DNA from: Pelagibacterales bacterium MED-G40
GTDB lineage: Bacteria; Pseudomonadota; Alphaproteobacteria; Pelagibacterales; Pelagibacteraceae
Assembly: GCA_002457515.1 (NCBI GenBank)
Contig: NTJN01000001.1
Coordinates: forward strand, 186,001-250,000
Reading direction: 5' to 3'
Length of the DNA stretch: 64,000 nt
Shown: positions 30,755 to 33,793 of the stretch, piece after piece
Layout of the letters: the number at the start of each line of letters is the position of its first letter
Numbering within the stretch: position 1 is the stretch's first letter
Made by a program: the position numbers and the translations under genes
The notes under the pieces: generated by a model
What the model saw: only the letters and a program-made list of their open reading frames with translations
What the model was told of the DNA's origin: nothing
The model's database searches: none

Positions 30755-32431
30755 ATGAATATAAATAAATTAAACAGTTTAGTTGAACTTTATTTTAAAA
30801 AAGTAGATGAAATTGATGGTAAAAAACCTTTTTTAAAATGGTTAAAACAAAGTAAACCAACTTACAACTGGGAAGACATAACTGAAAAAATTTTTAAACT
30901 TAGTGCAAAAATTAAATCTTTAATTAATGAAGGTGACAGATGTTTGATTCTTTCTGAAAATAGACCTTATTGGTTAATGGCTGATATTTCTATTATGAAT
31001 GCTGGTGGAATTTCTGTTCCTATTTTTACTACTTATTCAGCTAATGATTATAGGTATATTTTAAATGACTGCAAACCGTCTTTGATAATTGTTTCAAATC
31101 AAGATCAATTTAAAAAAATTAAAAAATTTATAAACAATGATGTTAAAAAAATTATATCTTTTGAAAAAATAGAAGCAGACAGTTTATTAATAGAAGATAT
31201 TTTAAATGAAAATATCAGTGAAAAAGTAATTAATAAAAATCTAAAAAGAAATATGCCCGCTTGCATTATCTACACTTCTGGCACTTCTGGAAATCCTAAA
31301 GGAGTAGTCTTAAGTCATGGAGGTATTTTATCTAATTGTGAAGGTGCTGTAGAATTATTAGAGCCTTTGGTAAATAAAAAAAATCCTGTGTTTCTTACCT
31401 GGTTACCTTTATCTCATTCTTATGAACATACTGTTCAATTTATTCAAATTATTGTCGGTGCAAAAGTTTTTTATGCAGAAAGCTTGGAAAAATTAATTTC
31501 TAATATGGGCTCAGCCAAACCTACAATCATGACTGCTGTGCCAAGATTCTATCAAAACCTTTTTACAAAAATAAATATAAATTTTGAAAAACAAACTGGA
31601 TTTAAAAAGAAGCTAATTAACCAAACATTAAACTTAGGAAAAAAAATACTTAAAAAAGAAAGATTAAATTTAAGAGAAAAAATAATGAATTTTTTATGTG
31701 ATAAATTAGTAAGAAATAAAATTAGAAGTCAATTTGGTGGCAATCTTCAAGCCTTCGTTTCAGGTGGTGGGGCGCTAGATCAAAATATAGGCGAATTTTT
31801 GAATGCTGTAGGTTTGCCCACTCTTCAAGGTTATGGTCTTACTGAGGCATCTCCAGTAGTTAGTTGTAATTTACCAAATTTAGTAAAAGTTGAAACCGTT
31901 GGCCCACCATTTAGGACAAATAAAGTCAAAATATCTGACGATGGCGAAATTCTAATTAGGGGCGAAAATGTTATGTTGGGATATTGGAACTTAAAAGAGG
32001 ATACTGAAAAAGTTATAAAAGATGGCTGGTTATATACAGGTGATATAGGTGAATTAGATAAAAATAATTATTTAAAAATTACTGATAGAAAAAAAGATAT
32101 TATTGTAAATTTAGGCGGTGATAATATTTCACCGAGTAAAATTGAAAATATTCTATGTTTAAATGAAAACATTAAACAATCTTTGGTTTACGGCGATAAA
32201 AAAAACTATTTAGTTGCATTAATTGTAACAGAAAAAGAAATTAACAACGAACAAATTAAAGAAATATTAGAAAATATAAATAAAAACTTAACTTTGGTAG
32301 AAAAAATTAAAAAATTTGTATTAATTAATGAAGAATTTACAATTAATAATGGAATGTTAACACCAACTTTAAAGTTAAAAAGAAAAGAAATAATTAAAAA
32401 TTATAAACAACAATTAGAAAATCTTTATTAA
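30755..32431 (+). CDS. long-chain fatty acid-CoA ligase type AMP-binding enzyme
   Basis: 558-aa member of the acyl-adenylate family, activating fatty acids with ATP and CoA. It has the AMP motif IIYTSGTSGNPKGVVLSHGG, TWLPLSHSYEH, the GYGLTEASPVVS motif, and the hinge DGWLYTGDIGELDKNNYLKI followed by TDRKKDIIVNLGGDNISPSK, which resembles long-chain enzymes of the FAA/AasC kind. No membrane segment. It starts 5 nt after tRNA-Leu, so it may be transcribed with it and freed by tRNA processing. Confidence 0.9.
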   Translation: MNINKLNSLVELYFKKVDEIDGKKPFLKWLKQSKPTYNWEDITEKIFKLSAKIKSLINEGDRCLILSENRPYWLMADISIMNAGGISVPIFTTYSANDYRYILNDCKPSLIIVSNQDQFKKIKKFINNDVKKIISFEKIEADSLLIEDILNENISEKVINKNLKRNMPACIIYTSGTSGNPKGVVLSHGGILSNCEGAVELLEPLVNKKNPVFLTWLPLSHSYEHTVQFIQIIVGAKVFYAESLEKLISNMGSAKPTIMTAVPRFYQNLFTKININFEKQTGFKKKLINQTLNLGKKILKKERLNLREKIMNFLCDKLVRNKIRSQFGGNLQAFVSGGGALDQNIGEFLNAVGLPTLQGYGLTEASPVVSCNLPNLVKVETVGPPFRTNKVKISDDGEILIRGENVMLGYWNLKEDTEKVIKDGWLYTGDIGELDKNNYLKITDRKKDIIVNLGGDNISPSKIENILCLNENIKQSLVYGDKKNYLVALIVTEKEINNEQIKEILENINKNLTLVEKIKKFVLINEEFTINNGMLTPTLKLKRKEIIKNYKQQLENLY

Positions 32432-32563: not shown

Positions 32564-32591
32564 TTGACATGAATCTTAAATTAATTAAAGT
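32564..32591 (+). promoter_or_regulatory. candidate promoter of the polybasic mini-gene
   Basis: A perfect TTGACA (32564-32569), 16-nt spacer and TAAAGT (32586-32591) lie 52 nt before the ATG at 32643. The rest of the 211-nt gap after the acyl-CoA synthetase is very AT-rich, and I see nothing else in it except a weak AAATAAA/TTTATTT inverted repeat near 32440 that might end the upstream transcript. Confidence 0.4.
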
Positions 32592-32642
32592 TTACATTAA
32601 CAAACGAATCATAAAGATTTGTTTATAAAATGGGAGATAAAG

Positions 32643-32711
32643 ATGGCTAAACGTAGAAAAAAAGCTAAGAAAAAGAAAAAAGCTAAAAAAAGAAGAAGAA
32701 GAAGAAGATAG
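32643..32711 (+). CDS. 22-residue polybasic peptide
   Basis: A 22-codon frame (ATG to TAG) whose product is Met, three Ala, ten Lys and eight Arg: it opens MAKRRKKAKK, continues with Lys/Ala and ends in six Arg. A good ribosome-binding site (GGGAG, eight bases upstream) precedes the ATG, and a strong terminator follows 14 nt after the stop, so it looks like a free-standing gene. The six final AGA codons form a trinucleotide run. It might bind RNA or DNA, as ribosomal mini-proteins or histone H1-like tails do. I do not recognise a described family, and no function is claimed. Confidence 0.7.
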   Translation: MAKRRKKAKKKKKAKKRRRRRR

Positions 32712-32724
32712 TTTTTTTAAAGCA

Positions 32725-32765
32725 AACGCCCTTTTTAATTTATAATTTAAAAAGGGCGTTTTTTT
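32725..32765 (+). terminator. bidirectional intrinsic terminator
   Basis: AACGCCCTTTTTAA (32725-32738) pairs perfectly with TTAAAAAGGGCGTT (32747-32760) around an 8-nt loop and runs into T residues to 32765. On the other strand the same stem is followed by a shorter T-run interrupted by GC, so it can also end the carD transcript. It is the strongest terminator in the window along with 39161-39190. Confidence 0.9.
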
Positions 32766-33447
32766 ATACGTCTGCTAAGTTTTGATTTCTTCCTAAAGCT
32801 TTATCCATTTTTCTTTGAACGTCTTCTGGCTTAATTTTTAATACAGCTTCAAACTCAGATTTCAACCTTTCATAAGCTTTTTCAAAGAGTTGTCTTTCGC
32901 TATAAGACTGATCTGCGATGATATCTGAATTTTTGTTTAAATCTTTTACTACCTCAGCCAAATCGTAAATCTTCCCAGAATTTATTTTTTGGTCATATTC
33001 TTGCGCTCTTCTACTCCACATGGTTCTTTTAATCTTTGGCTTAGTTTTTAGAATAGAAACACATTTATTAATTTGATTTATCGTTGCTATAGGTCTTAAA
33101 TTAGATTGTTGGTTAATGGGTACAGTTAAAGTCAGTTTCTCTTTTTCGATTAAAATTTTATAAAATTGAATGTCAATTTGGCCTATTTTAGCTTTTTCAA
33201 CAGATAAAATCTTACCAACCCCGTGTTTTGGATAAACAACATAATCTTTAATATTGTACTGCCTTTTCTCAGTGGGTTGTTTTTTTACTTTTTTTATCTC
33301 AATTTTTTCTTCATCTGAAAAATTACCTGTTTTTTTCTCAACTAATTCAGGTTTGCCCTTTTTTTTTAATTCCTTAACTATGCTTTTTTTAATCTTAAGC
33401 TTTTTTGGTTTTTTGTCTTTTTTATTTTTTTTACGTTTTTTTTTCAT
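32764..33447 (-). CDS. CarD family transcription regulator
   Basis: RNA-polymerase-binding regulator that stabilises open promoter complexes in relatives. The CarD/RID Tudor-like domain (YNIKDYVVYPKHGVGKILSV) is followed by a helical DNA-binding domain (TMWSRRAQEYDQKINSGKI, SYSERQLFEKAYERL). The start is set at ATG 33447 (227 aa), 4 nt after the ferredoxin stop; the frame runs on to an ATG at 33486 that would overlap it. The first ~55 residues are an unusual Lys-rich tail (KKKRKKNKKDKKPKKLKIKK). Confidence 0.9.
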   Translation of the reverse strand: MKKKRKKNKKDKKPKKLKIKKSIVKELKKKGKPELVEKKTGNFSDEEKIEIKKVKKQPTEKRQYNIKDYVVYPKHGVGKILSVEKAKIGQIDIQFYKILIEKEKLTLTVPINQQSNLRPIATINQINKCVSILKTKPKIKRTMWSRRAQEYDQKINSGKIYDLAEVVKDLNKNSDIIADQSYSERQLFEKAYERLKSEFEAVLKIKPEDVQRKMDKALGRNQNLADV

Positions 33448-33451
33448 AAAT

Positions 33452-33793
33452 TTACTTACCAGGTTTTTCCGAAAAATGTTTTTCATGTTTATTTTTTACA
33501 TTTTTAAACTCTTCCGCCTCAGGGAGAGGATCTTGTATTTTAGTAATTCTGGGCCATATTGCAGAATATTTTTTATTTAGCAATAGCCATTTTTCCTTAT
33601 CTTTTTCATTATAATCATAATCAGAAACTATTGCGTTAACTGGGCACTCAGGTTCACAAACTCCACAATCAATACACTCGTTCGGATTAATAACTAGCAT
33701 ATTTTCACCTTCGTAAAAACAATCAACTGGACAAACTTCTACACAAGTAGTGTGTTTACATTTAATACATTCATCCTTTACGATATATGTCAA
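33452..33793 (-). CDS. fdxA: 7Fe (3Fe-4S/4Fe-4S) ferredoxin
   Basis: FdxA-type ferredoxin, 113 aa. The N-terminal cysteines in [20 protein letters not shown] and the second set in [16 protein letters not shown] give the usual 3Fe-4S plus 4Fe-4S pattern. The C-terminal ~50 residues are the long tail of this alphaproteobacterial type. Its start overlaps the stop of the TerB-like gene by 4 nt; it is 4 nt upstream of carD. The fdxA-carD pairing is common in alphaproteobacteria. Confidence 0.94.

Follow-up and report, generated by a model that had tools for sequence, protein, structure and literature searches.

Results

A polybasic micro-gene between an acyl-CoA synthetase gene and carD

The stretch of DNA analysed here, which we call the window, comprises 64,000 nucleotides of a contig from Pelagibacterales bacterium MED-G40. 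On its forward strand, an open reading frame at 32643..32711, closed by a TAG stop, encodes the 22-residue polybasic protein MAKRRKKAKKKKKAKKRRRRRR. Upstream lies a gene for an AMP-binding acyl-CoA synthetase (30755..32431, forward strand), and carD (CarD/RID domain; 32764..33486, reverse strand) is the convergent neighbour that served as our synteny anchor. Ten lysines and eight arginines account for 18 of the 22 residues (82%) and for a net charge of +18; six arginines stand at the C-terminus, and arginine makes up 44% of Lys plus Arg. The micro-gene is the sole ATG-initiated ORF of at least 18 residues with at least 50% Lys/Arg in the 64 kb of the window, and a whole-genome check found it in single copy. 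Among simulated windows (n = 180; Markov orders 1, 2 and 4), such ORFs arose at 0.03 per window when at least 50% Lys/Arg was required and not at all at 60% or more. Because of this absence from the simulated windows, and because it is kept at the carD-adjacent loci of SAR11 described below, the ORF is not a chance ORF. Rfam contains no family matching the locus, two tRNAs being its sole matches in the whole window.

The CarD proteins of SAR11 carry a long lysine-rich N-terminal extension (32764-33486, reverse strand, in the window; L158:1444-2268) and total 240-274 residues, compared with open frames of 165-200 residues for CarD in many other Alphaproteobacteria. Both SAR11 families have this extension opposite the micro-gene.

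The micro-gene has its own transcription unit

The elements of this unit lie on the forward strand. The -35 element TTGACA (32564..32569), conserved throughout the order as TTGAC[AT], is followed after a 16-nt spacer by a weak -10-like element, TAAAGT (32586..32591), whose position is inferred and which is poorly conserved in relatives. A hairpin, AAACGAATC-ATAAA-GATTTGTTT (32602..32624), which contains CGAATC (32605-32610) and folds better than shuffled sequences, is predicted to form where the mRNA begins. A Shine-Dalgarno sequence, GGGAG (32632..32636), stands 6 nt before the ATG, and a similar purine-rich element precedes all orthologues collected. The unit ends in an intrinsic terminator (32724..32766), a 15-pair stem (32724-32761) with a T-run, situated between the two convergent genes; a hairpin with an ACGCCC or ACGC 5' arm is present 3' of the stop in most relatives. 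An earlier, sequence-only reading of this DNA had claimed a 22-residue, 82% Lys/Arg peptide with six terminal arginines, transcribed from its own promoter and provided with a ribosome-binding site and a terminator, and the translation and the located elements bear out this description.

The leader is conserved well beyond the window. In all 109 loci in which both motifs are readable (109/109, spanning the whole order), CGAATC follows TTGAC[AT] by 39-41 nt; given the usual promoter spacing it is predicted to lie at about +4 to +6, and the mRNA would therefore open with a hairpin. All 70 distinct leader regions fold better than their shuffles (median z -4.3), and the whole transcript does so with z = -4.2. 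In the leaders of g2, g4, g5 and g8 the pairing partner moves along (TCACTTAAA/TTTAAGTGA) and CGAATCA stays unchanged. The palindrome CGAATC-N-GATTYG was considered as a regulon operator and rejected, since its single occurrence in the whole genome assigns it to the micro-gene and not to a regulon. Single-sequence folds of g2 and g5 leaders pair forms such as ACTCC...GGAG with the Shine-Dalgarno sequence, which hints at translational control in these lineages, possibly a candidate translational switch that was lost in the short forms. CTCC or CCTC in the leaders of longer orthologues (L148, L153, L143, L150 and L157) can likewise pair with the GGAG of the ribosome-binding site.

The micro-gene is conserved across SAR11

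Searching the genus with the 22-residue protein recovered only 40 of 169 genomes, as low-complexity scoring fails on such a query, and conservation was instead assessed by carD synteny and by a DNA pattern. The suggested check, whether SAR11 genomes have this ORF in the interval from the acyl-CoA synthetase gene to carD, gave a positive result: at the carD loci of named SAR11 genomes it occupies the same place and orientation in 74 of 80, and at the remaining six the contig stops 106-138 nt past the carD match, inside the place of the micro-gene. In other genera and the sister family, 20 of 21 carD loci hold the ORF; in the sister family, its upstream neighbour is not the acyl-CoA synthetase. 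The exception is L145, in which the start and the RRRR-TAG end lie in different frames, as the gain or loss of one A in an A-run would produce. This locus (L145:2260-2325, reverse strand), from the sole g9 genome, has its frame break in an A-run near the end, and sequencing error and decay both fit.

Among 344 Pelagibacteraceae genomes, which vary in completeness, no more than 278 were positive for the DNA pattern, a count that represents 297 pattern matches less 19 belonging to another gene and that may itself include a few cases of a different gene. The 19 matches left out (L111-L129, sister family) identify another gene without a Lys/Arg-rich ORF; at 1501-1531 they share a gene start that is conserved but different, GGGAGAGAGC(A/G)ATGGCCAAGCA(A/G)CAGAAACG. 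Nine pattern-negative genomes of the window's genus are explained by assembly gaps, three of them also lacking the acyl-CoA synthetase and six having contigs that end inside its gene. Taking the carD-adjacent loci and the DNA pattern together, we found no verified absence of the micro-gene in the order.

The locus is also a frequent break point in single-cell SAR11 assemblies: contigs often stop at or just before the micro-gene (L038, L054, L057, L068, L076, L089 and L238-L244), several of them in the final 30-330 nt of the acyl-CoA synthetase gene. Contig C11 of genome G115 carries the same gene fragment at both ends in opposite orientation and appears chimera-like.

Beyond the order, a comparable ORF beside carD was absent at all 70 alphaproteobacterial carD loci examined, and the DNA pattern gave five chance-like matches, none of them resembling the micro-gene family. 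A class-wide search with an 80-residue form returned a single unrelated match and overlooked known orthologues, which makes it unusable as evidence of absence. A pelagiphage or viral origin was rejected: of four viral pattern matches, three correspond to longer unrelated proteins and one has no readable ORF of this type, so that no Lys/Arg micro-ORF is among them.

Selection keeps charge and ends, and length varies in a graded series

The 116 distinct loci, which encode 65 distinct peptides, retain the start, the frame, the stop and a basic composition; a failure of frame, start or stop to be conserved in relatives, which would speak against a protein-coding micro-gene as first proposed, did not occur. 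Comparison of synonymous with non-synonymous change between nearest-neighbour pairs of 20-25 residues gave 27 single changes at about 300 synonymous sites and 17 at about 1290 non-synonymous sites, a ratio of about 0.15, based on few pairs and on changes that may be common to several neighbours. Sixteen of the 19 residue exchanges were between Lys and Arg. Forms shorter than 60 residues have no acidic residue (Asp or Glu) and almost no hydrophobic one; nearly all Pelagibacteraceae proteins begin with MAKRR, MAKKR or MPKKR, and the three C-terminal residues are Lys or Arg without exception. Charge and ends are kept, and exact residue order and length are not. The micro-gene is coding, conserved and single-copy, its transcription unit is conserved too, and purifying selection maintains the positive charge of its product.

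Protein length spans 20-91 residues over the whole order, with repeat expansion in the long forms. The window's genus has 20-25 residues, g6 and g7 have 21-23, g3 25-35, g4 31-32, g2 and g8 31-38, and g5 34-58, so that Pelagibacteraceae outside the window's genus cover 21-58 overall. The sister family encodes KAAPKKK-repeat proteins of 76-91 residues, for example MEELKVIFAKARKKAKKKAAPKKRRKAAKKKPAKKKKAAPKRKAKRKAAPKKKKRKAAKKKKAAPKKRKKAAKKKRRKKR, and both g5 and the sister family show low-complexity repeats rich in Lys, Ala and Pro (KAAPKKK, KPAAKK). Shorter proteins are more basic (length against Lys/Arg content, rho -0.89) and richer in arginine (length against the Arg share of Lys plus Arg, rho -0.79; means rising from 0.16 in long forms through 0.22 to 0.40 in short ones), both coefficients being uncorrected for shared ancestry. 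When the carD tree is rooted with the sister family, g1 and g6, which have the shortest forms, join g3 in one supported group, apart from g2, g4, g5 and g8. Shortening of the protein within SAR11 would agree with this tree, but the direction of change stays tentative, as the 70 other alphaproteobacterial carD loci supplied no outgroup that has the micro-gene.

Discussion

Because the micro-protein grades into longer H1-like proteins in related groups, we regard it as probably a reduced polycation with a role in coating DNA or RNA. With moderate confidence, we read the locus as a translated, SAR11-wide micro-protein gene, in the window the shortest form of a family whose longer members carry KAAPKKK or KPAKK repeats and resemble the disordered C-terminal tail of histone H1; its product, a very short and acid-free polycation of nearly nothing but Lys and Arg, would most likely sit on the chromosome. 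From sequence features we infer both that the gene is expressed and that its target would be DNA rather than RNA; the latter is favoured because the long orthologues resemble the H1-type tails of the DNA-binding proteins AlgP, PhaF and Hc2. The 5'-terminal hairpin and strong Shine-Dalgarno sequence would yield a short, stable and much-translated mRNA of high output. The protein would be disordered, would bind nucleic-acid phosphate non-specifically through its charge and, most likely, would act on the chromosome beside HU as a counter-ion in the manner of an H1 tail or a protamine. Since HU family members are retained in all 17 genomes tested (two to three copies in 17/17), the micro-protein would supplement HU.

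That the micro-protein associates with the ribosome or with RNA, binding rRNA or mRNA and not DNA in a role like that of eL41, bTHX or S22, is a possibility that we take seriously while considering it rather improbable. The size and Lys/Arg content of the window's form are eL41-like, and a strong Shine-Dalgarno sequence and an own promoter would suit a house-keeping protein made in large amounts. The genes of small proteins that associate with ribosomes often lie away from ribosomal operons (PMC3353972), and Hc2 too binds RNA, more strongly than Hc1 does (PMC2848022). Against this stand the absence of any ribosomal gene near the micro-gene, the lack of a match to any ribosomal chain in the PDB, and the conservation of residue composition without residue order. 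A span of 20-91 residues with repeat expansion does not suit a protein seated in a ribosomal pocket, which would not tolerate a fourfold range of length, and an eL41-like role is disfavoured for this reason. Because length varies, and because shorter forms are more basic and Arg-richer, the family appears instead to be a length-tolerant, charge-based nucleic-acid binder. The sequence-only reading had offered an RNA or DNA coat, a seat on the ribosome or a counter-ion as functions; binding to nucleic acid is the part that we regard as probable, and the ribosomal part is weakened by the variation in length.

Binding to polyphosphate or another anion is suggested by the H1-like AlgP, which is found at polyphosphate granules (PMC9239181), and we judge it unlikely. 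PPK1 was present in 6 of 17 and PPK2 in none of 17 genomes tested, and PPK1 is missing from the closed genomes G171, G173, G194, G169, G175, G315 and G177, which hold the micro-gene or its pattern. Polyphosphate binding as the common function was rejected, given that closed genomes devoid of polyphosphate kinase retain the gene.

Were the product a short RNA, either non-coding or dual-function, with an incidental ORF, this would account for the conserved 5' hairpin, the terminator and the folding of the transcript (z = -4.2), and convergence with carD would allow pairing with the ends of carD mRNA. Coding constraint, the conserved Shine-Dalgarno sequence and ATG, length changes in codon multiples over 20-91 residues and exchanges mostly between Lys and Arg make this reading very improbable, and the RNA structure and the coding signal are both explained if the gene is coding and its 5' UTR structured. 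Equally hard to sustain is a secreted or toxic cationic peptide serving antimicrobial competition, or a stalling peptide that regulates its own mRNA: the product is very cationic and poly-Lys/Arg nascent chains can slow ribosomes, but it lacks a hydrophobic face and a leader, neither an immunity gene nor an export gene adjoins it, its universal presence at one locus in the order is unlike that of competition genes, and the convergent orientation of the downstream gene excludes a leader-peptide role.

If the micro-protein is abundant, it would be a core and tryptically invisible component of the nucleoid, or of the ribosome, missed by proteomics and by homology tools, because it is of low complexity, has no family model and lies at a locus where single-cell assemblies break. 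The order further provides a graded natural series, 20 to 91 residues in length and drawn from a single locus and promoter, in which one can ask how much of an H1-like tail suffices and why Arg replaces Lys as the protein shortens.

A literature search found no description of the micro-gene. Intergenic scans of the SAR11 strain HIMB5 reported at least three sORFs without a known function (PMC6429828), and the micro-gene may be one of these, the main text of that report naming neither a carD neighbour nor a Lys/Arg-rich peptide. Neither short nor long forms matched an entry in Pfam, NCBIfam or the PDB, including the Hc1/Hc2 and curated H1-like profiles of Pfam and NCBIfam, such searches serving low-complexity sequence poorly; the micro-gene is filed under no named family, and its suggested working as an H1 tail is a matter of likeness. 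eL41, at about 25 residues and rich in Lys/Arg, is close to the window's form in size and basic composition, and differs in being of fixed length, archaeal or eukaryotic, and of different sequence from a family of 20-91 residues; the PDB search gave no match at E<=10.

The closest likeness is to the C-terminal domains of AlgP and PhaF, chlamydial Hc2 and Bordetella BpH1, of which AlgP has KPAA repeats and binds DNA (PMC9239181) and Hc2 varies between 165 and 237 residues according to its lysine-rich repeats (PMC2848022). The long SAR11 orthologues share with them Lys/Ala/Pro repeats (KAAPKKK), a size that varies with repeat number (here 20-91 residues), a repeat free of acidic residues and likely disorder. 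AlgP and PhaF, however, possess a separate folded N-terminal domain, whereas the SAR11 protein has 20-91 residues in all, is shorter than Hc2 at 165-237 and, in the window's genus, contains no Pro and little Ala. The window's own peptide, unlike H1 tails, is devoid of Pro and of most Ala. The H1-tail resemblance first noted at this locus, then, is favoured by the KAAPKKK-repeat orthologues of the sister family; the accompanying statement that no sequence match exists is right for the window's 22 residues and does not extend to the longer orthologues.

For animal sperm proteins, an H1-to-protamine series has been proposed that leads from long Lys-rich to short Arg-rich forms. Protamines and protamine-like sperm proteins are, as here, very short and Arg-rich, and the SAR11 length series resembles the H1-to-protamine series. 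The SAR11 protein differs in being bacterial and without homology to protamines, in containing at least as much Lys as Arg, and in coexisting with a retained HU, which gives no sign of chromatin replacement. Tentatively, and as a possibility on which we would not yet rely, we suggest that an order-wide, hitherto uncharacterised H1-tail-like family shrank and became Arg-rich in the most abundant open-ocean lineages, giving a protamine-like micro-protein of 20-25 residues that would serve as an encoded counter-ion of DNA. If this protamine-like reading is true, SAR11 would offer a bacterial counterpart of the H1-to-protamine series.
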